Assembly: GCF_949628265.1 (NCBI RefSeq)
Contig: NC_088786.1
Location: 15,314,001 to 15,378,000, forward strand
Direction: 5' to 3'
DNA: 64,000 bases
Source of the DNA: Cloeon dipterum
Lineage: Eukaryota; Arthropoda; Insecta; Ephemeroptera; Baetidae
The translations under genes and the position numbers were made by a program. Under the pieces are notes generated by a model. The model was not told where the DNA came from. It was given only the letters and a program-made list of their open reading frames with translations, and searched no databases. Shown here in pieces: positions 1 through 26,416 of the stretch (positions are counted from its first letter, which is position 1; each line of letters begins with the position of its first letter).

Positions 1-1954
1 ATGATATGTGGAGTCGTTAATTGATCATCACTGGATCTCACTCTAACGAACATCACCTAACTAACATCACTTTCAGCAAGCTGTTGGCTTAGGAGAGTAT
101 ACAATTACAGACTACGAGGATGAGTTAATAATGTAACGCTTTTAGCGTCTCTCAAAACAACCTAAAGCAATCGAGGAATCCTTAAAATAAAGGCCACACT
201 CGAAGCGTGCAAGATTTCGGGACGTAAGCAAAACATTTCGAAAGATTTGTCTTATACAGTTTTATAATGAATCAAGCTAACGAAATGCTGCAGAATTCTT
301 GTTGCTATTAATCCAACCTTAGGAATGGACTTGAATTCTCTCAAAAGACCGCTTGCTCAAGTCATCAATGGGAATCATTTCAATGCATCAAATTATCTAA
401 TGTAAACCAAAATACCGATTGTTCATTCGGGATGTTACTCATTCATATTATTTATCCAAAATTGAAGAGTGTTCTTTAGAAAGGAGACAATCTTGAATCT
501 CACACCTTTTATTTTTAAGTATTTTTAATTACTTTTGGAGCAACTTAAGATGCCTATCCAGCTCACGTTCTTCGCGAGAAAGGTTCATAATCTTGAAAAA
601 TTTCCGCTCGCTTAATTAGAATTGGGCGAGGTGAAACTCCCTCCGGCCAAATAAACGTGGCTCGTTAGTACAGCAGAGAGGTTTTCGCAGGCCATGCGCG
701 ACTTTTGATAAGATATGACGGTCTTCGCAGCGCAGAGGCGGCCAAATTGCCAGAGTTGGCATTACAGTAGCAGTGGCACAATACGCGCATGAAGACGTAA
801 TTTGAAAAATGGTTGGGCCATTATTGTGGCGGGCACGCGGGTGAACCTAATTAAAGTGTGCCGCCGATTCCGAGGCCGGGCGAAAGTGCGAGGCGCAGAG
901 GTCATGGCCTACGCACCCCTTTGGAATTCGATTGCACGACGTCACCTAAAACTAATTATGCGGCTCGAGTCTCTCCTCGAAGCAGAACAATATAAAGCTG
1001 CAGACGGAATGCTGAGCAGCAATGCGAAGCTGAAAACTTCATTATCGGCAATCTGACGCGAGGAGAATGAAAAATTTTCGTTTGTTATGCGTGTTTGCGC
1101 AGATTATTTCAGGCCAGAGTGATAAAAAGTTATTACTTTTTTAGAGCGGAGAGAGAAAGGGTGAAATGCTGTTTTTACAGTTGCCGCGCCTCAGGGGAAT
1201 TTGCTGCCTTCACTTTGCAAATGTTTGCCTATTCAAGATTTGTACAGAGAGTGCGAAAAGTTATTAAATTTCTCAAGAAGAATATCTAAATTTCAAAAAT
1301 GCTCTGTGATGTAATTAATTGATTAAATTTATCTACGACACATGAAAAAGTCGACTCATTTTGTTACGTGTGTTTATGCAGTTCCTGCTTGTCATATTTT
1401 GCCTTTGTTCATTTTATTTTAATTTATGATATTCCCTGCCTGTAATTATTTTCATACATGAACAATAAACAGAAATTCTAAATATATTTTAAACTTTCTT
1501 CTTTCACAGAGCCAAAATTTTATTTATTTATAACTAGTATTTCAAATGGTTTGATGATATGCAAGATGTGAATGGACCAAAATGTCACCGAACTCAATTC
1601 TCAATTATTTCGCTGGGAACTATTATTAAATACTTCCGATTTCAACTCAATCCGGGAGCCTGAGGGAAAACACAGTCAAAATTAAGGATTAATTTACTGT
1701 ACAAAGAGAAAAAATATTTGTAACTGTTTAAAATTAAAAATTATATTTACCCTTATTTTAAAATGTTTTAAATCCAATATCCAAGATAATATCAGCATGC
1801 TGAGGCTGAGGCATTATGTGCTAGTCGATTTGTACACGTGTTGAAACACTCTGCCATGTTCTAAATTTGAATCTAACTGTGTGCATGACGTTCTAGTTCG
1901 TGGAACAATATCTTCACGCTAACGAAATGTAAACAATATTGTTTCAGGAGCGAC
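1..1954. other. No recognisable gene; GPCR upstream/5'UTR intron sequence
   Basis: This AT-rich stretch has no open frame that resembles a known family, and short open frames near 800-1290 look like chance. A good acceptor (pyrimidines followed by GTTTCAG) ends at 1947, eight bases before the GPCR start codon at 1955. The GPCR transcript therefore probably begins with a non-coding exon further left, inside this stretch or outside the window, and much of this sequence would be a 5'UTR intron. No promoter could be assigned. Confidence 0.5.
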
Positions 1955-4900
1955 ATGAGCGGCTCCGAGGCTGGTGTAACGAACCTTTCCAGCGCCGCGG
2001 GCCCACTTGGTAAGAGAGCGCGAGAGTATAATAATTCGTTTTGCCGTGTTGTGCGCGCCAATAACACCGTCTGCGTTCGGCACTCTGGAAAACGGTGGGG
2101 TTTTCCTGCCATGCACGACGCCCTTGAGTGCCAACAACGAGGCGCACTGCGGACTGGGGCACGCGACCTTGCTCGGGCCGGCTCAAAACTTTTTAAAGGG
2201 GATGGAGAGCTTCTCTCACGCGTGATCTCGACACCTCTTTTCGCACGAATCCACTCAAGCCTGCAAGATCCGAGAAAGTGCAGTTTGAAGTTTTACTCGC
2301 GTGTGCTGTTCAGTATTCGGGGTATTTGGGCAATATGCTAAAAATGCACATCTCAACAGATTTTAAAGCTCGTGATAAGTCGTTGAAGGCAGACGCAGTT
2401 AAAATTAAATGCAGCTTCCTCGGCGTACAGCGCGTTGTTTTTTTTACCATATTGTTATTGTTGCCCTAATTCAGCTAGAATGCAGTGAAATACATATTGT
2501 CCAAAAAAATTTAATTACTCAACGCTGAGGTTTAGTTAAATTAAAAAGGATTGGATCGCCTTGACCGGTCCCCCTTTCCCGGTTCGTAATACAAATTGCT
2601 GTGTGATCCACAATTTCCGGCACACATGTCATGTGCCATCTTTGATGAAATTTCCCGCCCTGACACTATAATTTCATAATGGGTGGCCAGTCAGTCTCGA
2701 ATGCCACCGGTCTTTCTCACGCTCACCCAGCGTCTTTCATGGGGTGTTGGGTTTGTTGTTATTTTTGTTTCCCCCGGGTGGCTGTCAGGCTGTCGCTTGG
2801 ATTGGAATTCTTGGACGATTATTTTCTAGTAAGCAGTGAAACATGTATCAAATCCATCAAAATTAAACACCGAGGAAGCTGCATTTAATTTCAACATTTC
2901 AACTCGAACAGCCTTTGATAAATTTAAATGATTAAAAATTGCATGGCGTGTCTTTCAATTGGATTTTGTAAATTTAATCTTCAACCCTCGACTAGATTAG
3001 CTTTTTAAAATATGTAAATTATTCCTGTGAGCGAGATTTGTTTGTTGCTATTCCATTTCTGGACTAATTTAGCATGCAGCAGCTCCTTTTTTAGTGAGAT
3101 ATTTTCCTCCATTGGCGTGAAATTTTATTTTCCCTTTGGCCACAAAGACAAACAAAATAGCTGTCCCCAGTAATCAACACTACTTGTTTTCAAGTCAGTG
3201 GAGAGTGGAGAGCAAGTCCCAACCCAGACTTCACTCAAATATGCCTCATACAAAGAAATATCCAAGTTGCTTTTAAAATCCACCGATGGGGGTGTGAGCG
3301 CTCACTCAGCCGGGGATTTTTCTGCCCTGCTCATTTTATCTCGTGCCAGAGGGTGGTGATGAGTTAACTCGTAGCCTGGTTGACACGATTGGTACGCTAA
3401 GAATTAGTCGATACAATTCAAAATCATTAAGATAGAATGTTTTTGTTAACTTTAAATTCCTTTAAAATGAAATTTTGAAATTCCAATTCTTCAACATTGC
3501 GACTTCTAACTTTGACCACAACATTCAGTGTTGCTGAAAAAACTTCATAAGTCCATTTTAAATATGAAAATATTAAACCGTGGATTATTTTCACTGGTCT
3601 GCTGGGTCTAATGAAAACATGCAATTCGCTCATATCAATTGGTTCGTTGAATTGCAGATCGAGCCGCCATCAGCAATGGAGAGATTATGATGGCAATCAT
3701 CCGCGCGGCTGTAATTTCGTTCCTTGCTGTGCTCGGCTCAGCAATCAACCTGCTGGCATTGCTCATCTTCCTGAGGCGACCAGCGCTCAGATCACCATCC
3801 AACAGGTATTACTATTTAAATATTTATACACTATTCTGCTATTCATTTTCATTTATTTCCAACGGCCAAATTCGAATATATCCGCAATACATTTAGAACA
3901 ATAAAAAACCTGTGATAAATTATCTTTGTCGACGAAGCCAATGTGTACAACGACTGAGAAGGACCAATTTTTTTCGTGTCTACGGCATGGAAGAATACAT
4001 ATAATGAACAATATGATCAGCAAACTATGAGATTTTTCATAAATGATTTGAATCAACATAAGATATATGTTGTTTTAAGATAAGTGCTTGGAAATTACTC
4101 AACTTTTAGCGGAACCACACTTCAAAAATATTTGGTTGGAAATTTCCTCAGTGTTATAACTACCCTAATTTGATATTAATCTCGCAAGTAATCCAATTAA
4201 TACGCATTGCCGTAGTCACCGTTTTCACTAGCAGTTGCTCCTGTGTATCCAACAGCAGCTACTGTCGGTGGATTTGTCTCAGGATCTGCAGGTTCCACTG
4301 TTTCGCCTATCTGTTCGTCAGTTGCTCCTCCACCTTCTCCCGTGTCAATGTTCTCAGAAGCAGCTTCATCATTAGCAGCCGCAATTGTGGTTGCAACCTA
4401 ACAAGCAAAGTTGTTTATTTTACATTTTATTATTTACAAGGAGTAATCTTGTCACCGATGCAGCAGTCGTTTGTTGCGTGGTTTTTCTACTATTATTCCT
4501 GGAGAGCGGCTTATTTGGACCGCGGCACGAATTTGTGCCACAGCATTTAATGATGTACTGCCGCCTTTTTTTCATCGCTGAGCCTTTTTGCGTACCACCC
4601 GAGACTACTGCTAAAATGATTATGTATTATATTAATTTGTTACTCCCTGTGTTCGGATCAATGTTACAAGCACCTTTTTTCGTCCCATTTTGCACTTTGT
4701 TGCCGCTTTTTTGAGGGTGGGTCGTCCTTTGTTGCGTACTTTTGCCGTAGCCGACGCAACAGTAGATTGCCTACTCAGCAGAGATTCATGCGAGATAATT
4801 GTGTTCGATCGATCAAAGCCTTCCGAGCTTACCACCACTAATATGCAAACCGAAAAGCACGAGGTGAACCGCATATCTAGACGACGGCGAGTCTTCGCAT

Positions 4901-7900
4901 CTTTTTAACAGTGCTACACAAATGCTGCTCCAATGAGCGAGGAATGTTTGATTTGCACTGGACCAGAATTACAGAGGAATAGAAAGATGGCTGGTTTGTC
5001 CGCAGTGACGGAATTTCAACCGAATGCGCAGTATTATTTTATATTTTTTTCAGCACGTCCTCTACAGGCGCTTCCGCTGCATCAATATTTTGAAAACTAG
5101 AATTTTCATATTTTATTCTAAAATGCTGTGCAGGCAAATTTTATTTAATTAAGTGATGAAAATCAGGAGGCCACTGTTGGAAAGAATATTATTTGTTCTA
5201 GAACGTGACTTAAAACTAACTCAATATTGATTAGCGTGCAGATCAGTTATATATATTATGTATAAAAACACATACTTCGTCACTTTGATGCGCATGATAT
5301 TTCAAAACGCACACTTTGCATTAGTTTTTGCTTAACTAATGATCACAAGGTATGCATTGCTGGAATTAATCGCATCCCATTCAATGAGAGGTAATCTGGA
5401 TATCTCGAATGTCAATTTTGTTTCTATGCTTTGTCAGCTCAAGTGCGCATCCATACACAATCAACTCGAAACTGAGTATAAAAGATGCCGTACTTGCAGG
5501 ATTATATTTAACTCCCTCTGCAATTAGTTTGATGGCATGTTTAACTCTTTTATCTCGGTTTTGTTTTAATTGCCTCCTTTTTCATTTGTTTTTAATCCCA
5601 CGTGTAGCATGCTATCCTGACTATCAGCCTTTTTCCTCTTTGATGTCAATTCGTTACGACTGTATAGCAATCAAAAATAGAATGTCTGCTGCGTCATAAA
5701 GGTAAATTTTGGGAATTAACGTCAAAATGTAACTATAAAAAACTCTAAATGTTCTCGTGTTTCTAGTCATAAACTTTTTAAACATTAAAATTACATCGCG
5801 CAACAAGTTTTGATCGAATCAGTATGAATGAAAAAGATTGGAATTTTTTAAGAATTATCCAGTAGCATTTGGTCAACAGAATAGATTAATTTTTTTCCGT
5901 TAATTACTAAAAGAAGGTCAAAACCGTATAATTGGCGATAAAAAATAAAATCGAAATATGTGCTTTGCAAGAGCTTTTCATGAAAAATATTCCTCGATGC
6001 TCAACAGAGATATTTAAGATAATTATATGCACTATGCACTCATGTACTTAGGGGGGGGGGGACAAAATACTGTTTTTTATCTACGCACAATTTTTATCAT
6101 AAAAAACTTTTTGAGACTGAGATCAATGAAAACAAGAGTCTTCGATTTTTATTCTATTTTGTTCTATTTTCCACGTATGCTTATGTCTAACAAATTAGAT
6201 CAGCATATTTCCAAGCTTCGATTTTCTCTGCGCAGATTTGTGGTGAGTCTGGTCGTGGGCAACCTGCTGACGGCGGCCGTGTTGGTGCCGTCGACGTTGC
6301 TGGCGCGGCACCGAGAGCCCTGGCTGCGGCGTTCGCTCGCCGCGTCCGCTGTGTTCGCCGTGGCCGGCAGCGTGCTGTCGGTTGTGTGCATCGCCCTCGA
6401 TCGCCACTCAGCCGTCCTCTCGCCCCTGCACTACTCTTCGCCGGGCACTAAACAGCGCGCCCGCGTCCTCCTCGGCGTCGCCTGGGGCCTCGCGCTGCTT
6501 CAGGCGGCCCTGCCCCTCACCATCGGTGCCGAACCTCCTTCCCTGATATTTCCACAGGTAAAATTAAAAGATGAACTAAATAATTTTTAAAAAAATATTT
6601 TTCTATTGAAAATACAAATTCTTATTTTTATGAGTGGAAAATAAAGGCATCTTCCTCGGTGTATATATTTAGCTGTTTTCGTTATATTTCCATAGAAATG
6701 AAATCTTCTGCTCTAATATCTAGTTTCGGCTGCTATTTGCAGCCCTAAATTCACGAGCTGCGGGTGAGCGTTGAAGTGATCTGTTCACAATTTCTGTAGA
6801 ATATACACTTAGGAAGCTACCAACAAATATGATGTGAATCTGCCTCTGGCATCTATCAGCAAATTAATAAATAAAGTTCGATATGCTGCAAATTAAATTC
6901 CTGTTTAAATATAATCTTCACTCTTATAAAAGTTTCTACAGATATGTGATGGTACACAAATATGCATTCAATAAGATTAAAGCGGCTTATAAGAGCCCCG
7001 ATGTTAAGGAAAATTACTATTGTGCCACTCTCTGATCTAATTATTCTATTCAGCTGTACTTAAGTGATAAAAAATTACAACTGTTAAGTGAAAACTGCCT
7101 TGAGCCAGATATGTTGCCTGGTCAACTGCAAGTAAAATTAATATCAGATTATTTTAAAATTAAAGCGACATTTTCCCAGATCATGAAGCGTGTATAATAA
7201 AGCAACATAAATTAGAGCCGCCATTTTTTAATTCATGTAGGATATATAATACTCTCGATTTTGTTGAATGTTCCTTCAAAAAAGGCGGACGATAGCAAAA
7301 ATTCCAACGGCACTCAAAATACATTTATTTTCAGGTAAAAGTGAGAGTAAATAATATAGGTACTAATATTCTCTTGAATATTACAATTCATTTCATATTT
7401 AAAAATAAAGCATATTTAAATTAAAACTGAAACTGCTGGTATGCCCTCAAGTTATCATAAAAACAAAAATTAGTGAAACAGTAATTAAGACAGATTGGAT
7501 CTGTGGTAGTTCTTTTACAGAAATTTTACCGTGACAAAAATTAACAATCAATAGAAACACTCCTCTCTTCTTTGAAACTGGATGTTTTCTCTAAATAATG
7601 TTTATTTTAATTTTTCCTTTAAGGTAATATGTATCGTTCTCTAAAACTGAATATAAATGTCAAAAAAATGAAGGCAAAAATAAATATGTTCCTTATCTGC
7701 CTTTCAGAGCCACACACCATTTCGGATAGCATACGCGAGCACGATGGCGGGCCTAGGTCTGGTCGTGCCCCTCTTGGTGCTGTGCGTCATCTACACGCGG
7801 ATGTTCGGTGCCGCGCAACGCAACAGCGAACGTACGCGGCGCCACAGCGTGACCGATGTGGTGGCGCTGACGCGGCAGGGCTCGGTGTTCTCGCGCGAGG

Positions 7901-10900: not shown

Positions 10901-12796
10901 AACTAACTTTTTCGTTTAACTTTTCGGCTAAATTTAGCGAGCTAAAATGCTAAGAGTGCAGCCGAGGTCGCTGGAAGGGTAGTTCCGACATTAGCTTGGC
11001 ATTCAACGCGAGTGAGCTGCGCTCAATCAGTCTACTTATAGCAAGTAAAGACTTAGATCGTGCCTGAGCTTTTTCTCAACTCACGGTTTGTGTTCGATAT
11101 CACACACTCGGATCCGTTCAACGCCTAGGGTCGGGAAATCTCGATTCGTTTAAAATTTTATGATGTGCAAAGAGCTCCTGACTAGAGTGCATAAAGCTTT
11201 TGGAGTCAATTTCTAACAAAGAGAATGAAACCACAGCTTTCTCGGTGCGGAACACGTGAGCTTTGGATAGGCAACATGCTTGGCAGAGCTGCTCGGCAGG
11301 TTGCATAGTTCGAATTCTGCAAGTTTTGCTTTTATACCTTGCTGCACTGAAAAGTTGGATGAAAACAGGATTTGTAGGTTTTAAGACAATTCCGCAGTTT
11401 AGAAAAATCAAATAATTTCCTGTTCAAAATTAGTCTTTTGTTAACCTCACTGAAAACATATGTACATTTTTATGCCACATGGAACTTCTAGGATCGTAAG
11501 ATCTAGGAGGGAGCTGAGACATTAACGCTTAAAAATAGACATGCTTGCTTCCATTTCCTTGAACTGCACAAACAAGGCAATAAGTGCCTCAATTTGATTT
11601 GCTGCAGAAGTGCTAAATGTGCATGATTTTGAGATTGAGCCCTACCCAAAATGATTTAAAACTTTAAAACGGTCTGTATTAATATATACCATAAAAATCC
11701 GTCTTTCAATCGCCGAATAAATCACAACTCATCTGCGCGATTTTCATGGTAATATTCTCATACACATTTCGTACTAATGAGAGCTACTCAGAAACTAGAA
11801 TTAATCGAATAAATAACATTTTTTGCCCAATGAATCAATAATGAAAGGAAATCTTCCTAGTAGCAGGAAATTCCTATTATTGGCAAATTATCTGCCTGCG
11901 ATTTTAAAGTCTTCAGCTACATTTGAACGAAAAATATTTATTTGCAAATTTTTCTTCGTTCCTTACTGACTCTGAATAGCACAAAAATATGTGCTTTTTT
12001 GCGAAAATGAGCTTCTCTTTGGTGACCAGAACCTTAAGGGGTAACACCAACTAAGCAACGTAGATTACACTACCCCAAATACATCGTTATCAAATGAAAA
12101 TAAAATTTACCGGGAGATGTACCCTTCTGAAAAAATTACATGTCTCGAAAAATTCTAAATAGCGAAAATATTGGTATAATTGATCGAATTATATATTTGA
12201 GCCATAATTTTACACATATAGCGTGAACAATACTTGGGTAAAATTGATAAATAAATATTTTGGTATAAAGACACAGTCAGTAATCGTCTACTGTAATGCA
12301 ATTCTTGATTCTTCAGTAAAGATGACTTAACCGTCAAAACAGATTTCGTATACTGTGTCTAATTGAGTAAGATTCGTGTTCATTTCTTTTTAAATTTGTC
12401 CTTTTCTCAACGATGCTCTCGTAAATTTTGTTTCAGCCTGCCAGCTTGGAGCTGCGAACAGCGTGCCCTCCCAGTGTGGGAAACGGGCGTCGGCGGGAGA
12501 ACGTGACGCTGCGGCTGATGCCGCGCGTCAACGGCGGCCGTCGCTGTCAGAGTTGCGTACGGCAGAACTCGGACTCGTCGTGCGGCAGCGGGCAGGCGTT
12601 GCTGGCGCGCGACTCGAGCGTCGACTCGGCCAACAACACGCCGCAGCGCCGCAAGAGGCCAGCGTCGTCAGTGGAGACGTCGCTCTCGTCGTCGGGCATG
12701 GGCCGTTCGCTGGATTCGTCCGAGCAGGAGGACGGAGATGTCAGGCCCAGCAGGCCCAAGCTGCAGCGACTGCCCGCCGTCGAGGACGAGGACTGA
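1955..12796 (+). CDS. Orphan class A (rhodopsin-like) G-protein coupled receptor, six coding exons
   Basis: Coding exons 1955-2009, 3658-3805, 6236-6557, 7708-8072, 8783-9023 and 12437-12796 join in phase to 496 aa. The start MSGSEAGVTNLSS gives an extracellular N-terminus with an N-glycosylation site. TM1 has N1.50 (N49); TM2 is residues 69-86; TM3 ends in D123-R124-H125; TM5 has P196 and Y204; TM6 has the CWTP motif (257-260); TM7 ends TPFVY (290-294). Residues 297-496 form a long Ser/Arg/acidic tail, presumably cytoplasmic. Odd points: N77 replaces D2.50, H replaces Y of DRY, T290 replaces N of NPxxY, and no Cys is seen at the top of TM3 or in loop 2. Exon 5 could alternatively end at 9008, also in frame. 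The ligand is unknown; some Drosophila orphan receptors (CG12290-like) are a guess only. A second copy of the last exon lies at 19859-20218. Confidence 0.88.
2404..2890. mobile_element. Non-autonomous inverted-repeat element in GPCR intron 1
   Basis: Two inverted arms of about 22-24 bp bound roughly 490 bp. The left arm at 2404-2425 reads ATTAAATGCAGCTTCCTCGG and the right arm at 2867-2890 is its reverse complement with few changes. There is no transposase. Related arms bound shorter elements at 6644-6824 and 47997-48132, so this is a dispersed family, probably MITE-like. The exact ends and target-site duplication are uncertain. Confidence 0.5.
4197..4874 (-). CDS. Small secreted Cys/Gly-rich protein, lectin-less relative of the mucin-lectins, nested in GPCR intron
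   Basis: Four exons on the minus strand (4874-4833, 4770-4644, 4610-4456, 4397-4197) join in phase to 174 aa. Exon 1 encodes a signal-peptide-like MRFTSCFSVCILVV. Exon 2 holds a CC pair and basic sequence. Exon 3 carries QYIIKCCGTNSC, matching QRIIKCCGRNSC in both lectin genes of this window. Exon 4 is Glu/Thr/Gly-rich and ends VGYTGATASENGDYGNAY then stop, matching VGYTGVTAGENGDYGDAG in the first lectin. Intron phases (0, 1, 0) are the same in all three genes, which strongly supports the model. It stops where the lectins continue into their Ser/Gly repeats and CTLD, so it is either a short family member or a truncated one. It sits antisense inside the GPCR intron 3806-6235. Function unknown; a mucus or cuticle-associated role is only a guess. 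Confidence 0.65.
6644..6824. mobile_element. Short inverted-repeat element in GPCR intron
   Basis: The left arm (6644-6670, GGCATCTTCCTCGGTGTATA) and the right arm (6796-6824, reverse complement GGTAGCTTCCTAAGTGTATA) match each other imperfectly. They also match the arms of the elements at 2404-2890 and 47997-48132. The interior is about 125 bp and non-coding. The arms are diverged, which suggests an old copy. Confidence 0.4.
9585..9829 (+). repeat. SINE-like dispersed repeat, near-complete copy
   Basis: A GC-rich block of about 245 bp ends in GGACAGGGATAAAAAG and an A-rich tail, typical of a retroposed short element. The same block occurs inverted at 56796-57048 with high identity, as a 3' fragment at 19605-19690, and as diverged copies at 30600-30729, 33240-33540 and 63560-63915. 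No clear tRNA-type A and B boxes were recognised, so its origin is open. It lies in the last intron of the GPCR gene. Confidence 0.7.
10264..10443 (-). pseudogene. Possible remnant of a mucin-lectin-family signal-peptide exon
   Basis: A 59-codon open frame on the minus strand begins MRRLACFLLIIG, which looks like a signal peptide. Around the ATG the DNA resembles the first exon of the nested gene at 4874: both read GATATGCGG at the start and share a CTCGYGTGCTTTT block. No following exons of the family could be found downstream on the same strand. It may be a decayed family member in the GPCR intron, or chance. Low confidence. Confidence 0.25.
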
Positions 12797-15682
12797 AAGT
12801 GCGAATTCCAAGCACCATTGCCGCTGCGAAGCACTCGTTCCTTTTCATCCTAGTCGACGAGGACGTTCACTTCGTCGATCGATATGTTTCATTGTATACA
12901 GCGGAAAGATATGTTTTTGCCGTAACTCTTACGTTTTCACGATGGTCTTGCTGTGCAAACTTTTGTGAACCGGGAGCAAGTGTTTTGTATGCATGATAAT
13001 TATATCCAATGAAAGGATTTTGAATTGATTTACCGGAAACTTTTACTTCTAGGAGCAAGATATTTATATTTTTGTGACATTTTCCTGACAAACGCGATCA
13101 GATTTCCTTGTATTCGCCGTGGAGAAAAAAATTCAATTCACATTAATAAGAAATGACCAAAAGCTTTAGGCGCCGCGCAACTAATTGTGATTCAGCCGAT
13201 CAATTAAGTGTGTAATCACAAAATTAAAACTGTGCATTCTGCAAAAGGCAAGAACGATCAAACTCTACAGTTACGACTATTAAATTATAACAATTATTAA
13301 ACACTTAACATGCTAACTGTTATTATAGCCAGTATATGTGCGTGTTATCAACTCATGAAATTTAAATGTTGCTCGATCTGAGAGAGTTTAAATGGCACGT
13401 CCAAAATCAGTTACAAAAGAGGAATATTCAAATGAAGAAATTTAAAATAAATTTTAATCTCCCAGAAAAGAGCGAGGATCGTCTTATTTCTATATCCTAC
13501 TACTTTCCTCTACCACAGATAGCGTTTGCTTTCGCCCACTTTCACCGCGATCGACGCCATCATTGCTATCGAAAGCAGCAGCCTATTATCGGAGTTTTCC
13601 GTTCGACTAGCTCTAATAAATCTAAGGATAGGCTTCTCTGTCATCGTCCTTCGCGTTACCCACATGGATAGCAATTAAAACATAATTAAGAGCATACTCG
13701 ACCGACTTCTAACCTCGTAGAGCTTCGAAGAATGCGACACCACCTGATTTTATCAGTACTTAAAATTACGCAAGACGCAAGATTGCTTTTCTATCGATCA
13801 GTCCAAGAGATCTTTCATCGTTTTTTTTAAATTTAAATATGGCAAGATGCTTTTCAAAAGCTACGAGGCTATCTAAATCATTTTAATAAGCTACACATTT
13901 CAACCAATATAGAGTTTATTTCGGTCTCACGAATGTTAAATGTGACCCCATAATATCACCAATTTTAATTAGCGTAAGATTTTTTGAAATCAGGGGGTTG
14001 TAACTGAACTTCCATCTTCGGTGACTACGTATATATGTTTGTTGGGTAAAGGTATACTGCACGTGATACATTATAAGGGCAGTTTCATGTTGGTAGAGTG
14101 AACACTTGCAAAGCAGAAGGAAAATTTGCAAGCATCAAAATTTGCACATCTTACCTATGATATTTTCAAGGGTATTTAAAAATTACATGCCCTTATGTGT
14201 ATTGCAGTTTTCAATATTAATAACAATTCGGTTTTATATGTTGATATCTAGAATTGCCTCTGAATAGCTATAGATGCTATTCAACTTTGTTTATTGTTAT
14301 GGCCCAGCAGGGCAACTTTGCCCCTTACTTACCCATGTACAAAACCAATATACTACAAATTATAACAAAACATTATAAAGAGAAGTTTTACTCAGTATAG
14401 TGAAAACACATCAGAAACGTCATGAAAACCCAGTTGAGATGGACCAGCATGCTCTTTCTTCGATCTTCTCGTTACAGCTTTCCATTGAATTGAATTTAAA
14501 CGCTATAACCGTATCTAAAATCTAAAGGCACGTTAAAAGGACGTGGAAATTATTCATATTTAAGAATGTATTAGAGCTATGAAGATCTGCATAAAAATTG
14601 CTTTTTGTTTTCATTTTACGCATGGTTTGATTTAGAAAAGCTGATCTATATTCAACTCGTTCCAAGTCTCGTCTCCCATCTCTAGTTGAAACGAAGGAAC
14701 TGACGCAACGTGCACAATATAAATTAATTGCTGTAACCTATCACGAGCGTATCGCCAATATTTTAATCTGCACCTTCATTTGCATCATTTTATAGATCAA
14801 GTGTGCAGCACACGTTAAAATCAACATACTGCAGGATAAGAACACAATAACATATCTATCCATTTTAGTTTGAGTCGTTCCATTTCAAGCAAAGTTTGAC
14901 ACTTTTTAAGGTTTATTTTGCTGATTAACAAACTGAGCTGAACAGACAAACATATTAATAAATCTGTTGCAACACGCCAATAATGCTCTTTTAGCCCTCA
15001 TACTGACCCATTAACAGCATAATTTTCCATGTCGAGTGTACCGCTTGTATCAGAGAGGCATTGCACAAATTTGCCAAGAGGGTGCCATCTGCAAAAGTAG
15101 TGGAGCTTTGATGCTGTAGACCATATGTGTACCATTTCACGACCCTTTTTAATATGATGTTAAATATTAAATATGCTACTCGCTTTTTGTGTCTGATTAA
15201 AACTAATTAAAAGTATTCTTACTTTGTCCTAAAATTTTCGCAGTCAATTTACCAGTGCAGACAACATGGTAAAATATCAACGTGAACATATAATTCTGGA
15301 TGTCAATGGCTTGACCCATTTTTATCTTTTTTATGAAAACTGCCCATGTCCAGTCTCGAAATGCGTAATTTTAAGAATAAAATAGCCTTTAAATAAGCGC
15401 CTTTTTTCTCTAAGTTTCAAAGTTCAGTTAATCCTAAATCATATTGTTTGAACGCAGAAATCGAAAGTTACTAAATTGTTATACTGCAAGATATATTAGA
15501 CAAATTAATTAATTAGCTACATTTTAAAAGATTGCATTTTAAAATTAATTTTAATTTTACCAATAGTAACTATAACTTACACTAATATAATCATTATCAC
15601 ATTTTAAAGAGATAATTCCTATTAATTCAAAACATTTCTTGTTTTGTTGCAAATGAAGTTCCGATATTTATTTTTTGGTGCG

Positions 15683-17993
15683 TTAAGAAGTTTGCTCGCA
15701 CAAATAATTCGTAGATTCATAGCATTCCCAATCATTAAATCCATTGGGTCCTGGGAGGCCAAGCACACCAATTCCAACAGTCATTACCATGCAATGTTGG
15801 TCGGGCAAGTAGTTTGGCTGAAGTAATATCCATCGATATGCAGATACATCAAGAGTATTTCCTGTACACCACGCAAATTTTTTATGGCAAAACCTGTCAC
15901 TTGCTCCAAGCCAGTAATTTGTTTCTTTGAGTTTCATCACATCTAGATTGAACAAATCAACAACAATAATAATTAATCTTGTTCAAATAGGAAATATGTT
16001 TACCATCATTATATTTGGTGATGCAGTCCTGCTCCGATCTGGTTTCAAAAGAGCTCAGTACCATGCCCAAGGCACAGCATGCTTGGAAAGCCATCGTGTG
16101 GTTTAGCTATCATTTGTAATAAATAAAATTTTTGCAACCAAATATCTACTGGCTGTACTTACTTTTTCAGTGCTAAAGAAGTAATTTTTCCCACAAGCTG
16201 ATTTTAATGCTCCCTTTCCACTGGGGACTGTAATAAATTTATATAGTTAATTAAAACATTATTTCCATAATTTTTGAAAAAAGCTAGCCTTTCAGAGTGA
16301 CTCCATCAGGAAAATAGTTCGGCTAGACAGAAAAGATTTATGAGTGTTTTTGTAACTTAATTCTTAAAAAAATGAATCACGTTTTTGTTGCACGGCAAAA
16401 CGCATCCATCATCCATGCAAGGATTCGATTTAGGCACAACGGTAGCACCTGTTATTTTTTCATTTGGATTAGTGTGCATGCAAAAATAATTTTTGGATAG
16501 CGCTTACTGTTTGGTGGAGGAGATGTCCATCCATCATTATCAGCAGCAGTGGGATCGCTGAGATTTCCAGCCCCGGGAGGGCTTAAGTTACTTGTAGTTG
16601 TTGAGCCACCTCCATCACCTTTAGTTGTTGTAACATCACCAGTACTTTGTGCTGTCGAGCCTCCACCACTATCCTGAGTATTCGAACCCCCGCCGATACC
16701 CTGAGTAGTCGAACCTCTTCCACCACCTTGAGTAGTCGTAGTTCCTCCACCATCCTGAGTAGTCGAACCTCCGCCGCTACCCTGAGTAGTCGATCCTCTT
16801 CCACCACCTTGAGTAGTCGTAGTTCCTCCACCATCTTGAGTAGTCGAAACACCACCTTCAGCAGCAAATCCTCCACCACCGTGCTGTGTAGTTGAAACGC
16901 CAGCACTTCCCTGTGTTGCTGAACCTCCGCTGCTTCCCTGAGTTGTCGAGATTCCAGCATTGCCTTGAGTGGTCAAATCCCCATTACTCTGGGAAGCTGC
17001 AGCACTACTTGAATCAGATGCGCTTCCTGCGCCACTTGCAGCCCCACTACTGCCTGTTGTTGCACCTCCACCTGGCCCTGAATTCGCAATTGTGTCTCCA
17101 GGGGCACCAGCCGAACCGTCTGAGGGTGCAGAAGAGCCGGCACCTGGATCGCTTCCAGGTGCAGAACCGCCACCGTCAGCCGGGTCAGATCCTGCATCTC
17201 CGTAGTCCCCGTTTTCTCCCGCAGTTACTCCTGTATAACCCACCCCCGCGGCGGTGGTTGTCATCCCTGAACCAGCACCTCCTGCGGCACCGCCGCCTCC
17301 AGAATTGTTGATTTCACCTATCGAGCCAGTTCCATAGTCGGCTGACCCTCCACCAGATGAGTCTGACGGGGCACCAGATTCAGAATTTCCTGCTCCGCTG
17401 CCTGAATCAATCACATTGCTGCCGCTGTTTGAAATTGTGGTTGTCAGTTCCGAAGAACCTCTTTGGATTATTCCACTTCCAGCCCCTGTAGGCTTTGTTA
17501 GAAAAATTATATTCCAATTAGGCGCAGTAAAAAATCTTTGTCTATAATACAGTAATCAAATTCTTGGCCGACGAGTTTCGGGTGTAATTTCCGCTTTTAG
17601 TTGGTGAGCAAGAATTCCTGCCACAGCACTTGATAATTCTCTGTCGCACGGCACGGTGCAATCCATAAATCTCTGAGCACGAGTCGGAAATCAATCAAAT
17701 ATATGTTAAATACGCTTAACTTACTAGATTTGTGAAGCTTAATGGTAATCACTTTTTGCTGACCAATGAATGATTCGCAAACAATAATCTGGAAATGTTT
17801 TTACGTCAATTTTGTGTCAATTTTTGATTGATTTAAAAATGAAGAAACTTTCATGTTTTTGAGTTCACCAATAAAAAGGAAAGCAAAGAAATAAACTCTT
17901 TGTGTAAACAGGCACAGAGCTAGGAGTTGAAAACGACAAATTAATTATAATTACCAACAAGCTGGAAGTGAGAAGAATTGAAAACCAATTCAT
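15683..17993 (-). CDS. Secreted mucin-like C-type lectin (unit 1 copy), nine exons
   Basis: Exons 17993-17955, 17788-17725, 17672-17551, 17492-16508, 16448-16381, 16322-16289, 16227-16163, 16106-16004 and 15942-15683 join in phase to 579 aa. The order is a signal peptide (MNWFSILLTSSLL), a short Cys motif (QRIIKCCGRNSC, about residues 49-60), a Ser/Gly/Thr-rich mucin-like region (about 76-403) with degenerate GGGSTTQ repeats likely to be O-glycosylated, and a Cys-rich linker plus C-type lectin domain (about 404-579). Lectin hallmarks are FQACCALGM, NYWLGASD, WCTG, QPN in place of EPN/QPD, NDWEC and NYLCE. Calcium and sugar binding are uncertain because of the altered QPN motif. The intron after the sixth exon appears to use a GC donor. 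Probably secreted; barrier or immune roles are inference. A paralogue lies at 22812-25067. Confidence 0.85.
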
Positions 17994-18730
17994 TGATATT
18001 GGCGATAGCATGACTGTGGAAGCCTGGTCTACGCGCACTAATATCCAACAGTGGGGCCAATTTGTTGCTGGAAGAGAATAAAGCGGACGCAGTTGGGAAA
18101 CAATTAAATCAACTGTGTCGTCAGCACAGCTCCCTTCCATTTGCTATTTTCTATATGCGTATAGCGCTTTTGACGTCCACTATTGCTATTATCCTGCATT
18201 TCATGTGTACCTTGTTTAGTGATAAAAAATATTGATAAAACCAGAGTTATTAGCCATCAAATTTTCATTTTACCCTTTTTTATTAATAACACTTATAACG
18301 TAGTATTAGTTAGTTGGCTGAAGACTGGGTTTGTCAGACTTAAAAGAGACATATTATTCGTTCGTTAAGAATAACATTACATGTATTGAGATTAGCTGTT
18401 ATCAATAAATGGTGCTCAAGTTACAAAGCATTTTTATTCCATTCAAGGAATGAGAAAAAAACATGTTGAATTGAAATTTGCACGAATACCCAATATAAAC
18501 TATTCTTGATATGAATTCAAATTTTTTAAAATTGCTGCGGTTCTCTGTAGAATGCCATCTACGGAGAGGGTAGCGCACCCACCGGGGCGAGGGTTGCAGC
18601 GGATGGAACGCGCAGGTGCCGGGGTGGCGGCGAGACCAAATTCTCATCGCTTGTGTGTCGCAAAACCCAGCGGACGGGCGGCAGAGCAGACAGACGGGCG
18701 GAGCGAAACGATGCAGCTAGCTGCCCACCG

Positions 18731-19030
18731 ATGAAGAGGGTGATCAGCTTCGTCAAGGGGGGTGGAAAGGGCCGCGGGGGTGCCTCCGACGTGGTGCCCG
18801 TCCGCAACCTGAGCTTCGAGGGCGGCCTGGACGACCCACCGGGCTATGAGGTGGACACCAAGACGCTGTCCAAGCTGCATAGGGCTGCCTGGCTGGGCCA
18901 GCTGGACAAGCTCAAGGGGCGCGCCGAGCAGCTGGACGCACCGGACAAGGGCGGCCGGTCCGCCCTGCACCTGGCGGCCGCGCAGGGACACGCCGATGTC
19001 GTCTGGTTCCTCATCAGCAATCGAGCGAAG
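18731..19030 (+). pseudogene. Spare copy of ANKRD26-like first coding exon (unit 1)
   Basis: This 300 bp open segment encodes the same 100 residues as the first coding exon of the ankyrin gene at 26417-26716, starting MKRVISFVKGGGKG and ending FLISNRAK at a GT donor. The upstream GC-rich leader is also duplicated but differs by indels. The next exon lies at 27563, beyond the whole second unit. It could be a non-functional leftover of the duplication, or an alternative first exon that splices over 8.5 kb. The perfectly kept frame and donor fit either a recent duplication or continued use. Confidence 0.75.
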
Positions 19031-19604
19031 GTGCGGTTTTTTATTATCTTCTTTTTTCCTGCCAAAAAGCAGGCGTTGTTCCGTCCATCGATTTTTCGGG
19101 GGTGGAGATGTGAGCCTGCATGTTTTGGTGTAGATGTTTTTGTTGACGGCTTTTCTGCTCGGCTTACAAAGAATGCTTCGCATTTATTGCGATTGAATAT
19201 ATCTTTAAGTGACTAAGTTTGAAAATTTAGGGAAATAATTACAATTATTGGAGTTCAATTAGTGATCATAATTTTTCTCAGCAAAAATTTTCATTTCAAA
19301 GCGCAGGAAGAATAGATTTATTGGACCTTAAAAGCAGTGCAGATATCGAGCGGCGCAGAGAATCATTATTGCACAAAGCGGAAGTTTAGGCGAATCAGTT
19401 TATTCTCTCATGGCCTATTTCACAAAAATGGCGTTGTTCCATCACACACAGGACTGCGTTGTGACGTTTTGACTCTGCAACAACATTAAAATTTATTGAA
19501 CTGAAAATTTTGTGCACTGGAAATTTTGATGCTATACCCTGTATTTTTGAAAACCCCTTTACCCAACATATATTATTGAATTATTATATTATTAAAATGA
19601 AATG

Positions 19605-19690
19605 CGGGTTTCAGCATTCGTGCTAGTGCAGTGCGCGCCCTTCCCGGTCCTCCGGTCCTCGGACAGGGATAAAAAGAGCAAAAAAAAAAT
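19605..19690 (+). repeat. SINE-like 3' fragment at the duplication junction
   Basis: The last 86 bp of the SINE-like element (GGGTTTCAGCATTCGTGCTA onwards to GGATAAAAAG and an A-run) lie in the roughly 250 bp between the two duplication units. It is truncated at its 5' end. Its position suggests the element, or a break at it, took part in forming the junction, although later insertion is equally possible. Confidence 0.65.
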
Positions 19691-19858
19691 AATAAAGTAA
19701 TAAAAATTATGTAGAAATTAATACAAACAATAAATATGGGTTTCCATATTTTATTAAAAACAGACACTGCTACTGTAGAGCCAAATTTTATTTAATTAAG
19801 TGATGAAATTATTTTTTCATTTTTCCATTTCTCAATGCTATTGTCAATCTTGTTTCAG

Positions 19859-20218
19859 CCTGCGAGCTTGGAGCTGCGAACAGCGTGCCCTCCCAGTGTG
19901 GGAAACGGGCGTCGGAGGGAGAACGTGACGCTGCGGCTGATGCCGCGCGTCAACGGCGGCCGTCGCTGCCAGAGTTGCGTGCGGCAGAACTCGGACTCGT
20001 CGTGCGGCAGCGGGCAGGCGCTGCTGGCGCACGACTCGATCGTCGACTCGGCCAACAACACGCCGCAGCACCGCAAGAGGCCTGCGTCGTCAGTGGAGAC
20101 GTCGCTCTCGTCGTCGGGCATGGGCCGTTCGCTGGATTCGTCCGAGCAGGAGGACGGGGATGTCAGGCCCAGCAGGCCCAAGCTGCAGCGACTGCCTGCC
20201 GTCGAGGACGAGGACTGA
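19859..20218 (+). pseudogene. Spare copy of GPCR terminal exon (unit 2)
   Basis: An intact 119-codon open segment with a TTTCAG acceptor and TGA stop matches the GPCR last exon at 12437-12796. Only three residue changes were found (R to H, S to I, R to H). The 3'UTR that follows is also duplicated. As GPCR exon 5 donates in phase 0 and this exon begins in phase 0, it could serve as an alternative terminal exon skipping the first one, but it has no upstream exons of its own. A leftover of the duplication is the simplest reading. Confidence 0.75.
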
Positions 20219-22811
20219 AAGTGCGAATTCCAAGCACCATTGCCGCTGCGAAGCACTCGTTCCTTTTCATCCTAGTCGACGAGGACGTTCACTTCGTCGA
20301 TCGATATGTTTCATTGTATACAGCGGAAAGATACGTTTTTGCCGTAACTCTTACGTTTTCACGATGGTCTTGCTGTGCAAACTTTTGTGAACCGGGAGCA
20401 AGTGTTTTGTATGCATGATAATTATATCCAATGAACGAATTTTGATTTAATTTACCGGAAACTTTTACTTCTAGGAGCAAGACGTTGATATTTTTGTGAC
20501 ATTTTATGACAAACGCGATCAGATTTCCTTGTATTCGCCGTGGAGCAAAAAATTCAATTCACATTAATAAGAAATGACCAAAAGCTTTAGGCGCCGCGCA
20601 ACTAATTGTGATTCAGCCGATCAATTAAGTGTGTAATCACAAAATTAAAACTGTGCATTCTGCAAAAGGCAAGAACGATCAAACTCTACAGTTACGACTA
20701 TTAAATTATAACAATTATTAAACACTTAACATGCTAACTGTTATTATAGCCAGTATATGTGCGTGTTATCAACTCATGAAATTTAAATGTTGCTCGATCT
20801 GAGAGAGTTTAAATGGCACGTCCAAAATCAGTTACAAAAAAGGAATATTCAAATGAAGAAATTTAAAATAAATTTTAATCTCCCAGAAAAGAGCGAGGGT
20901 CGTCTTATTTCTATATCCTACTACTTTCCGCTGCCACAGATAGCGTTTGCTTTCGCCCACTTTCACCGCGATCGACGCCATCATTGCTATCGAAAGCAGC
21001 AGCCTATTATCGGAGTTTTCCGTTCGACTAGCTCTAATAAATGTAACGATAGGCTTCTCTGTCATCGTCCTTCGCGTTACCCACAGGGATAGCAATTAAA
21101 ACATAATTAAGAGCATACTCGACCGACTTCTAACCTCGTCGAGCTTTGAAGAATGCGAAACCGCCTGGTTTTATCAGTACTTGAAACTACGCAAGATGCA
21201 AGATTGCTTTTCTATCGATCAGTTCAAGAGATCTTTCATCGCTATTTACAAATTTAAAATATGGCAAGGTGCTTTTCAAAAGCTATGAGGATACCTAAAT
21301 CATTTTAATAAGCCACATTATATTCCAACCAATAAAAAATTATAACTATAAACATTATAAAGAGAAGTTTACTCAGTATAGTGGAAACACATCAGAAACA
21401 TCATGACAAAACGCAGTTGAGACGTGCCAGCATGCTCACTAGTCGATCTTCTCGTTACAGCTTTCCATTGAATTGAATTTAAACGCTATAACCGTATCTA
21501 AAATCTAAAGGCACGTTAAAAGGACGTGGAAATTATTCCTATTTAAGAATGTATTGGAGCTATGAAGTCCTGCATAAAAATTGCGTTTTGTTTTCATTTT
21601 ATGCATGATTTGATTTATAAAAGCTGATCTATTTTCAACTCGTTCACAGCCACATCTCACGTCTCCCATTTCTAGTTGAAACAACGGAACTGACGCAACG
21701 TGCAATATATAAAGTATTTCTTTGCTGTCACCTATCACGAGCGCATCGCCTCCATTTTAGTCTGCACCTTCATTTGAATCATTTTTAGTTCAAGTGTGCA
21801 GCACACGTTAAAAATCAACAAACTGCAGGATTAGAACACAATAAAATATCTATCCATTTTTTGAGTCGTTTCATTTCAAGCAAAGTTTGACACTTTTTAA
21901 GGTTCATTTTGCTGATTAACAAACTGAGCTGAACAGGCTGCAATTAACAAACATATTAATATATCTGTTGCAACACGCCAATAATGCTCTTTTAGCCCTC
22001 ATACTGGCACATTAACAGCATAATGTTCCATGTCGAGTGTACCGCTTGTATCAGAGAGGCATTGCACAAATTTGCCAAGAGGGTGCCATCTGCAAAAGTA
22101 GTGGAGCTTTGATGCTGTAGACCATATGTGTACCATTTCACGACCCTTTTTAATATGATGTTAAATATTAAATATGCTACTCGCTTTTTGTGTCTGATTA
22201 AAACTAATTAAAAGTATTCTTAATTTGTCCTAAAATTTTCGCAGTCAATTTACCAGTGCAGACAACATGGTAAAATATCAACGTGAACATATAATTCTGG
22301 ATGTCAATGGCTTGACCCATTTTTATCTTTTTTATGAAAACTGCCCATGTCCAGTCTCGTAATGCGTAATTTGAAGAATAAAATAGCCTTTAAATAAGCG
22401 CTTTTTCTCTAAGTTTCAAAGTTCAGTTAATCCTAAATCAGATTGTTCGAACGCAGAAATCGAAAGTTACTAAATTGTTAAACTGCAAGATATATTAGAC
22501 AAATTAATTAATTAGCAACATTTTAAAAGATTGCATTGCATTTTAAAATTAATTTTAATTTTACCAATAGTAACTATAACTTACACTAATATGTATAATC
22601 ATTATCACATTTTTAAGAGATAATTCCTATTAATTCAGATTCGAATAATTCATCAATTTTAAAAAGGTAATACTTTACATCATTTTACAGATAATAAAAT
22701 CAAATTACTATATAAATGCTAAAACTAATATAATTCGATTGGTAAAGAAAATATGGGAAAACATTTCTACTTTTGTTGCAAATGGAGTTCCGATATTTAT
22801 TTTTCGGTACG

Positions 22812-25067
22812 TTAAGGAGTTTGCTCACACAAATAATTCAGAGATTCATAGCATTCCCAATCATTCAATCCACTGATTCCAGGGAAGCCAAAAAAACCAA
22901 TTCCAATAGTCATTTCCATGCAATATTGGTCGCGAGAGTAGTTTGGCTGACTAAGTATCCATCGATATGCGGATACATCAATTGTATTTCCAGTACACCA
23001 CTCAAATTTTTTTTGGCATAACCTGTCACTTGCTCCAAGCCAGTAATTTGTTGATAGGAGTCGCATCACATCTACATTGAACAAATCAACGACAATCACG
23101 CACTTAATCTTGTTCAAATAGGAAAAATGGTTTTACCATCATTATATTTGATGAGACAGTCCTGCTCCGATCTGGTTTCAAAAGAGCTCAGTACCATGCC
23201 CAAGGCACAGCAGGCTTGGAAAGCCATCGTGTGGTTTAGCTTATTTCAATTGCAATAAATTATTTTTGCAACCAAATATATCTACTGGCTATAATTACTT
23301 TTTCAGTGCTAAAGAAATATTTTTTCCCACAAGCTGATTTTAATATCCCCTTTCCAGTGGGGACTGCAATAAATTTATATAATTAATTCAAACATTATTT
23401 CCATAATCTTTAAAAAAAGCTAGCCTTTCAGAGTGACTCCATCAGGAAAATAGTCCGGCTAGACCGAAAAGATTTATTAGTGTTTTTGTAACTTAATTCT
23501 TTAAAAAATTAATCACGTTTTTGTTGCACGGCAAAACGCATCCATCCATGCAAGGATTCGATTTAGGCACAACGGTAGCACCTGTTATTTTTACATTTGA
23601 TTAGTATATGCTTGCAAAAATATTTTTTGGATAGCGCTTACTGTTTGGTGGAGGAGATGTCCATCCACCATTATCAGCAGCAGTGGGATCGCTGAGATTT
23701 CCAGCCCCGGAAGGGCTTAAGTTACTTGTAGTTGTTGAGCCACCTCCATCACCTTTAGTTGTTGTAACATCACCAGTACTTTGTGCTGTCGAGCCTCCAC
23801 CACTATCCTGAGTATTCGAACCCCCGCCGATACCCTGAGTAGTCGAACCTCTTCCACCACCTTGAGTAGTCGTAGTTCCTCCACCATCCTGAGTAGTCGA
23901 AACACCAACTTCAGCAGCAAATCCTCCACCAACGTGCTGTGTAGTTGAAACGCCAGCACTTCCCTGTGTTGCTGAACCTCCGCTGCTTCCCTGAGTTGTC
24001 GAGATTCCAGCATTGCCTTGAGTGGTCAAATCCCCATTACTCTGGGAAGCTGCAGCACTACTTGAATCAGATGCGCTTCCTGCGCCACTTGCAGCCCCAC
24101 TACTGCCTGTTGTTGCACCTCCACCTGGCCCTGAATTCGCAATTGTGTCTCCAGGGGCACCAGCCGAACCGTCTGAGGGTGCAGAAGAGCCGGCACCTGG
24201 ATCGCTTCCAGGTGCAGAACCGCCACCGTCAGCCGGGTCAGATCCTGCATCTCCGTAGTCTCCTGTATAACCCACCCCCGCGGCGGTGGTTGTCATCCCT
24301 GAACCAGCACCTCCTGCGGCACCGCCGCCTCCAGAATTGTTGATTTCACCTATCGAGCCAGTTCCATAGTCGGCTGACCCTCCACCAGATGAGTCTGACG
24401 GGGCACCAGATTCAGAATTTCCTGCTCCGCTGCCTGAATCAATCACATTGCTGCCGCTGTTTGAAATTGTGGTTGCCAGTTCCGAAGTACCTCTTTGGAT
24501 TATTCCACTTCCAGCCCCTGTAGGCTTTGTTAGAAAAATTATATTCCAATTAGGCGCAGTAAAAAATCTTTGTCTATAATACAGTAATCAAATACTTGGC
24601 CGACGAGTTTCGGGTGTAATTTCCGCTTTTAGTTGGTGAGCAAGAATTCCTGCCACAGCACTTGATAATTCTCTGTCGCACGGCACGGTGCAATCCATAA
24701 ATCTCTGAGCACGAGTCGGAAATCAATCAAATATATGTTAAATACGCTTAACTTACTAGATTTATGAAGCTTAATGGTAATCACTTTTTGCTGACCAATG
24801 AATGATTCGCAAACAATAATCTGGAAATGTTTTTGCCTCAATTTTGGGTCAAAATTATCTTCATTCTAACCTACATTATTTATGATAAGCCTAAATATAC
24901 ATTTATGAATTGAAAAAAACTGTTTTATGTTTTTGCGTTCACCCATAGAAAGGAAAGTAAGGAAATAAAATCTTCGTGTAAACATGCACAGAGCTAGGAG
25001 TTGAAAATATTAAATTGCTTATAATTACCAATAAGCTAAAAGCGAGGAGAATTGAAAACCAATGCAT
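22812..25067 (-). CDS. Secreted mucin-like C-type lectin (unit 2 copy), nine exons
   Basis: Exons 25067-25029, 24820-24757, 24704-24583, 24524-23642, 23581-23517, 23458-23425, 23363-23299, 23239-23137 and 23071-22812 join in phase to 544 aa. The layout equals the unit 1 paralogue: signal peptide MHWFSILLAFSLL, Cys motif, Ser/Gly/Thr-rich region (about 76-369), Cys-rich linker and C-type lectin domain (about 370-544) with FQACCALGM, NYWLGASD, WCTG, QPN, NDWEC and NYLCE. The mucin-like region is 34 codons shorter: one block of 27 residues of GGGSTTQ-type repeat and one of 7 residues near VGYTG are missing. The lectin domain differs at scattered positions. All splice sites, including the GC donor after exon 6, are kept, so both copies look functional. 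Confidence 0.85.
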
Positions 25068-26416
25068 TGATATTGGCGATGGCTGCTCTACACGTACTGA
25101 TGCCCAGCCGCAGCACCAATCAGTTACTGAAAGATTCTAAAGCGGACGCAGCTGGAAAATAATTTAATCAACTATGTGCCGTCAGCACATCTCCCTTCCA
25201 TTCGCTTTTTCTGTGCGTATATAAAGGCTTTAACTTCAAACTATTGCGTCAGCTGCAATCATCCTGCGTTTCAGGTACACATTGTTTCCTATAAGAAAAA
25301 TAAATGTCACAGAAAGAAACCAATCAGAGTTATTATTCATCAAATATGGTACATCAACCTTTTTTTAATAAAATATATGTTAATTTGTTCTATTGACACA
25401 GTCAAAAAATTGTTTGATCGAATTACCCATTCCTCCAGTTGCCTCATATGGCATTGAAGCTGTTTGGAAATACTTAAAAGATTTAAACAACCTATACCTG
25501 CCAAGACAAGATTCTTAAAGAAAGCTTTATGTGTTGATGAACGAATGAAGTCAAGTCTTTGAGTTAGTCGAAACTGAATATTTTAGAAATAATTTTAAGA
25601 AAAAATTATCCCTTCCAGTTACGCCTGTGTATGCTAAATTTTTGGAAAACATGTGTAAAAAAAGTTAAAAAAATATGCACGACAATTTTTACAGCTCTCC
25701 AGCTATTACAAATAAGAACTGGTGGCTTCCTCGTTGTATTAATGACCGGTATAATTTTACGAGATACTCCTTCCCTATGGTTATCATTTCCTTATATGTA
25801 AAGACAAACGTTTCAATCTAGATATTTCTGCTAATTGTAAATGCCAATGTTGTGATGAAGTATGCATATATATGTATCATTTGCTCATTTGCTCAAATGT
25901 AAAAATAGCACTATCATGCTTTTCCAAGTGGCTAAATATAAGAAAGTAATTCCTAACAATTCTGTGATATGATTTATTTCATGTGTCGTACACCGTTGGT
26001 GTCTAATAAATATTTAATTCGTTCCTTGAGAATAACATTAGATTTATTGTGATAAAGCTGTTATCACTAATGGGTGCTAAAGTTGTAAAGTATTCTTATT
26101 CCATTCCAGCAATCGGGAAAACGTGTTCAATTCAATTGTTGAATTGATATCTGCACGAATACTGTTATAAAACGTTCATGATTAGAACTCAATTCGCATA
26201 AAATTGCCGCGGGCGCAAAGGGATGCCATCTACGGAGAGGGTAGCGCACCCACCGGGGCGAGGGTTGCGTGCGCGGGGGCGCAGCCGGGTGGAACGCGCA
26301 GGTGCCGGGGTGGCGGCGAGACCAAATTCTCATCGCTTGTGTGTCGCACAACCCAGCGGACGGGCGGCAGAGCAGACAGACGGGCGGAGCGAAACGATGC
26401 AGCTGTCGGCTCACCG

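Follow-up and report, generated by a model that had tools for sequence, protein, structure and literature searches.

A putative small secreted member of a mayfly C-type lectin family that lacks the lectin domain, nested antisense in a GPCR intron

The closest described relatives of the locus reported here are the insect C-type lectins (CTL-S, CTL-X; Pfam PF00059, Lectin_C), of which 35 are reported for Mythimna separata (PMC8235521) and 32 transcripts for Thitarodes (PMC7379682). A term search of the main text of the Cloeon dipterum genome paper (PMC7250882) returned no word beginning with "lectin", and among the papers listed in our literature search none dealt with a family of C-type lectins in mayflies, a weak negative, the motif itself not having been a search term. 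Genes lying within introns are nothing unusual, reportedly making up about 6% of Drosophila melanogaster genes (PMC3786989). Here we analyse a stretch of 64,000 nucleotides of the C. dipterum genome (the window; NC_088786.1, 15,314,001 to 15,378,000) that holds a mini-gene nested antisense in a host intron, with the front part of a lectin family and without its C-type-lectin domain (CTLD). The account that we favour, and regard as fairly probable, is that this is a coding gene for a small secreted protein of ~164 amino acids, a family member that lost its CTLD long ago, has been kept by selection and would serve as a disulfide-linked partner in lectin oligomers.

The preliminary description had drawn the mini-gene as four minus-strand exons inside a GPCR intron, and its exons, GT-AG introns, nesting and open frame (174 codons, 4874-4197, phases 0-1-0; Table 1) all hold. 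What appears doubtful is its 33-bp intron 2, whose donor (GGA/GTAACA) scores -2.7 on a scale of donor weights. On the same scale the best donor among the 16 donor/acceptor pairs that preserve the frame lies at 4673 (AAG/GTGCTT, 1.7), and with the unchanged acceptor it gives a 63-bp intron, close in size to introns 1 and 3 (62 and 58 bp), and a protein of 164 residues in the same frame; we prefer this version. GC content is 0.48-0.49 in each of the four exons and 0.33 over the remainder of the host intron. Because the plus-strand exons behind the mini-gene match 7tm_1, we place it antisense within an intron of a rhodopsin-family GPCR. That intron also contains a run of about ten G (about 6051-6061). 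Open frames on the plus strand across the same stretch were considered and taken as shadows, since the codon constraint described below sits in the minus frame.

Table 1. Positions in the window of the mini-gene, its host intron and the two neighbouring lectin genes.
Feature	Position	Strand	Basis or remark
Mini-gene exon 1: ATG and most of the hydrophobic signal-like segment (MRFTSCFSVCILVV)	4833..4874	-	phase 0, donor GTAAGC; hydropathy
Mini-gene exon 2: preferred 3' end 4674, earlier end 4644	4674..4770 (earlier model 4644..4770)	-	donor AAG/GTGCTT
Mini-gene exon 3: basic KKRR stretch, then IIKCCGTNSC, then Thr-rich	4456..4610	-	
IIKCCGTNSC motif in exon 3, three cysteines	4525..4554	-	
Mini-gene exon 4: acidic tail (VGYTGATASENGDYG), stop TAA	4197..4397	-	
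AAVGYTGATASENGDYGNA segment of exon 4, common to lectin A	4203..4259	-	codon comparison
Host intron of rhodopsin-family GPCR	about 3806..6235	+	splice sites read from sequence; following exons match 7tm_1
Lectin A exons 1-4	17993-17955, 17788-17725, 17672-17551, 17492-16508	-	modelled from sequence
Lectin A CTLD exons	open frames 16106-15960 and 15982-15686	-	profiles
Lectin B exons 1-4	25067-25029, 24820-24757, 24704-24583, 24524-23642	-	modelled from sequence
Lectin B CTLD exons	open frames 23245-23117 and 23132-22815	-	profiles

The mini-gene shares with its relatives a cysteine module, RRxxIIKCCGxx[S/K]C, which protein queries found at 83 places on C1-C5 of the 190-Mb genome. These comprise 81 pooled places together with C4:33705325 (L040) and C1:40437683 (L045), both with module and CTLD downstream; matches to exons 2 and 4 of the window genes, two loci with no module (L044, L046) and the weak matches C1:38454574, C5:9058521 and C2:25053694 were left out. 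Requiring a CTLD to share the strand of the module and to be no more than 6 kb from it, with no further module in between, and drawing on Lectin_C matches near modules, a protein query to E about 0.3 and our own profiles to E 0.05, we find a C-type lectin exon downstream at 73 of the 83 places. Among the pooled places the count is 71 of 81, or 68 at E 0.01 and 65 at E 0.001 (protein query and own profiles), so that strict thresholds leave 67 of 83 (65/81 plus two of two). All 14 loci fetched with 7 kb of downstream DNA have CTLD exons by profile, the first of them 0.5-1.7 kb behind the module; as these very loci supplied the profiles, independent confirmation comes from the lectin B query, with E below 0.05 in 13 of them, together with the protein-query match to the fourteenth, L058, at E 1.4e-10. 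In L047 the profile recovers the CCxxGM half of the domain only.

Letter-by-letter reading of the module covers 46 distinct sequences, the remaining places being search matches. In 36 of the sequences read the CCG and the third cysteine are invariant by construction, since they were chosen by a pattern that demands both; the other ten, with K or another letter in place of S, escape that pattern and yet all keep CCG, the third cysteine and RR (L008, L009, L011, L020, L024, L039, L040, L041, L043 and L045; for example CCGFKKC and CCGNTKC). K or R precedes II at position -4 in 82% and at position -3 in 91% of 34 sequences. The family exon thus reads [K/R]RRxxIIKCCGxx[S/K]C, and as a rule a low-complexity linker and then between one and several CTLDs come after it. 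In the mini-gene, too, a single exon carries [IV][IVL]KCCGxx[S/K]C after a basic run of residues; the downstream CTLD, usual but not universal in the family, is what it lacks. Going by these searches, the module marks a large family, apparently insect, and the tie to two lectins that had been drawn for the mini-gene holds as far as it goes, but the module extends well beyond these three genes.

Known domain collections have little to say about it. Pfam gives no match to the 174-aa mini-gene protein up to E 1, which places it outside the C-type lectins as defined by PF00059, whereas its module-bearing relatives carry Lectin_C and are presumably secreted; a module profile run against the PDB returned nothing convincing, its one match, at E 3.1, being taken as chance. 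Scoring 150 of 375 candidate places in the whole genome gave at least 152 Lectin_C matches, counted exon by exon and not as genes. This abundance, beyond the published insect sets, indicates a very large C-type lectin expansion in this genome; at C2:6339498-6380408, for instance, four Lectin_C places of equal score, spaced at about 13.5 kb and each interrupted by an identical set of three in-frame stops, form a tandem array.

The two lectins of the window, A and B, are the relatives to which the mini-gene had originally been compared. In both, exons of 39, 64 and 122 nt precede the repeat exon, with the same 0-1-0 phases as in the mini-gene. The asserted sharing of the motif is borne out: aligned over exon 3, the mini-gene (IIKCCGTNSC) and lectin A (IIKCCGRNSC) score 71, a value reached by none of 2000 shuffles (maximum 49). 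Over exon 4, VGYTGATASENGDYGNA of the mini-gene and VGYTGVTAGENGDYGDA of lectin A score 90, again above all 2000 shuffles (maximum 79), and on these alignments the similarity between mini-gene and lectin A is not chance. Other claimed likenesses stand in part. The signal exons (MRFTSCFSVCILVV, MNWFSILLTSSLL) have the same role and phase and similar lengths (13-14 codons), but their sequences are not alike; a short phase-0 signal-like exon with phase-1 entry to the module exon was seen in four genes only, namely the mini-gene, lectins A and B, and L042. The VGYTG...ENGDYG segment is complete only in lectin A; lectin B is missing seven of its residues. Beyond this tail peptide the genes part as had been described: the mini-gene ends there, whereas in the lectins long Ser/Gly/Thr repeats follow and then a CTLD, which in both is of the CCxxGM type common among the loci read and which in lectin B matches Lectin_C at E 3.8e-6 (Pfam).

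Lectin B is a tandem duplicate of lectin A, with a repeat unit of about 7.0-7.7 kb. The duplication as a whole (12413-26585) carries both lectins and neighbouring ORFs; five 300-nt blocks of it are 96-99% alike, and its CTLD block only 87%. Elsewhere in the window, on the minus strand at 38162-49021, lie ORFs that we take to be two adjacent membrane proteins of the fatty-acid hydroxylase type, from their His-box motifs.

No CTLD was found in 10.2 kb downstream of the mini-gene (window positions 1-4197 and 6 kb beyond, L061), the best value being E 0.34 with profiles that do detect lectins A and B; a hidden domain to the left of the window was thus sought and not found in those 6 kb. Nor did a DNA comparison and inspection of three frames by eye reveal any remnant of lectin repeats or CTLD behind the stop. 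With module and phases shared and no CTLD exon in that distance, the view of the mini-gene as a lectin-family member without the lectin domain is supported.

Codon comparison with the N-terminal exons of lectin A points to constraint on the protein. Across the 32 codons common to both genes, which form two short segments picked for being alike, pS is 0.68 and pN 0.116 (Fisher p 1.3e-7); the 57 bases of the tail segment contribute 9.5 silent and 4.5 replacement differences (pS 0.65, pN 0.11). In the shared segments silent sites thus approach saturation, yet about 88% of replacement sites show no change. We set this against simulated neutral copies, scored by their best local alignments over exon 3 and the 21-codon tail, which allows for part of the segment-choice bias only: at branch 0.3 a fraction of 0.0047 of the 3000 simulated copies attained both observed scores, and from branch 0.5 upwards not one of 3000 did, with at most 0.5% of runs keeping 141 codons free of stops. 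This pattern shows, as far as codons can, protein-level selection and does not look like neutral decay; it also supports the earlier surmise that the mini-gene could still make a small secreted protein.

These results bear directly on whether the mini-gene is a dead or dying truncated duplicate, in which lectin 5' exons, once copied to the GPCR intron, now decay without function. Several features would suit such an origin: the lack of a CTLD, the weak donors at introns 2 and 3 (the latter scoring -0.9), a DNA search of the whole genome that matched the mini-gene to itself alone, and the distance of at least 339 nt from the stop to any polyadenylation-like signal, unlike the lectin genes, in which AATAAA follows close behind. 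Set against the substitution pattern and the simulated decay, and with neither frame loss nor a neutral codon pattern to be found, we consider this origin unlikely. The truncated copy envisaged in the preliminary description survives in the sense of an old loss; a recent truncation was rejected because silent sites are near saturation, and no similarity to repeats or CTLD lies behind the stop.

An old loss has in turn to be weighed against the opposite polarity, also envisaged before, in which the family began without CTLDs and gained them later; the mini-gene and a cluster on C3 would then be survivors. The cluster (C3:18043533-18051512) holds four tandem module places with E no higher than 9e-8, plus a fifth with E 2.3, with modules 1.1-1.7 kb apart and little room for CTLDs between them. 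The one gene read there (L042, L064) resembles the mini-gene in its signal-like first exon (13 hydrophobic codons, donor GTGAGT, phase 0), its phase-1 acceptor before the module (VVKCCGSNSC) and the absence of a CTLD; it differs in a much longer Gly-rich acidic tail, a 254-codon open frame, its four or five tandem places and the VGYTG peptide, which was not found there. As no CTLD occurs in 6 kb behind the last gene of the cluster, a module without a CTLD does not seem unique to the window. The ten CTLD-less module places are the mini-gene, five in this cluster (C3:18043533-18050864, the E 2.3 match being the first), L012, and C1:40430591 (E 4.2), C1:42814296 and C3:8420567, three whose downstream DNA was not fetched and which may have the domain; the last five cluster places and L012 show no CTLD at every threshold tried. 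L012 (C3:21224486) has a KCCG exon, behind which come GDTTAAAE-type repeats and an end rich in Lys, with no CTLD in the 1.5 kb read, and is a possible third kind of CTLD-less member.

The seeming existence of a second CTLD-less group, the like exon structure of L042 and the constancy of the module beside varying linkers and CTLDs would all fit a short ancestor. We nonetheless judge it improbable and do not adopt it as our principal account, since most module places are accompanied by CTLDs, those of the window lectins being of the common type. The tail peptide weighs in the same direction: among the ORFs fetched none but lectin A has it complete, which speaks for shared descent of that gene and the mini-gene. 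It is on the tail that this descent rests, since exon 3 of the mini-gene scores 99 against L004 and 20 members (L004 and 19 others) outscore the window lectins at 71. A midpoint-rooted tree of exon 3, an exon too short to resolve the matter, sets the mini-gene beside L012 and L004 and not beside the lectins, with no CTLD-less members at the base. The most economical explanation is loss of the CTLD in the mini-gene line, a short ancestor being possible but less likely, and we infer from the sequence comparisons that the mini-gene is an old lectin-less family member, kept by selection, that arose when the CTLD end was lost.

That the mini-gene is instead the 5' half of a longer gene, with an alternative donor in exon 4 leading, over more than 10 kb, to a CTLD that lies within the GPCR gene or past it, we think quite improbable: except for L042, all members read with at least 6 kb downstream do run into CTLDs, and GT dinucleotides are present in the tail, but in the 14 long loci the first CTLD lies far closer to the module than the 10.2 kb found empty here, and the matches listed include no Lectin_C on C1 between 14.611 and 15.336 Mb, a list from which lectin A is also absent.

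If the mini-gene is indeed a selected member that has lost its CTLD, its protein offers some indication of how it may act. Hydropathy alone places a hydrophobic stretch within residues 2-23, a putative signal peptide that would export the protein, and in the 174-aa model a basic front (+16 over 89 residues) is followed by an acidic tail (-13 over 66), a charge distribution that would favour association. The module has three cysteines, an odd number if the 63-bp intron 2 is used and the signal removed, and these could link chains by disulfides, either with the same protein or with the same module of CTLD-bearing relatives. The mini-gene protein would then be a lectin-free partner or filler in oligomers of secreted mucin-like lectins, in surface or matrix material, and disulfide-linked association is the most likely, still putative, role. 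The protein may also be cleaved at the conserved dibasic RR that precedes IIKCC. We tentatively extend this to a broader proposal, doubtful as it is at present, in which RRxxIIKCCGxx[S/K]C is an undescribed secreted working core, freed or exposed by dibasic cleavage and joining chains by disulfides, to which CTLDs are optional and of which the mini-gene and the C3 cluster would be the minimal forms.

The occurrence of such a gene suggests that the shared front part of the lectin family may act by itself. A very large set of lectins in one genome shares a conserved cysteine motif that has no Pfam match in the proteins scanned, and members with the motif alone provide a clean handle on its role apart from sugar binding. 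By the same token, members without a CTLD can be used on a family tree to test how the lectin domain arose or was lost.
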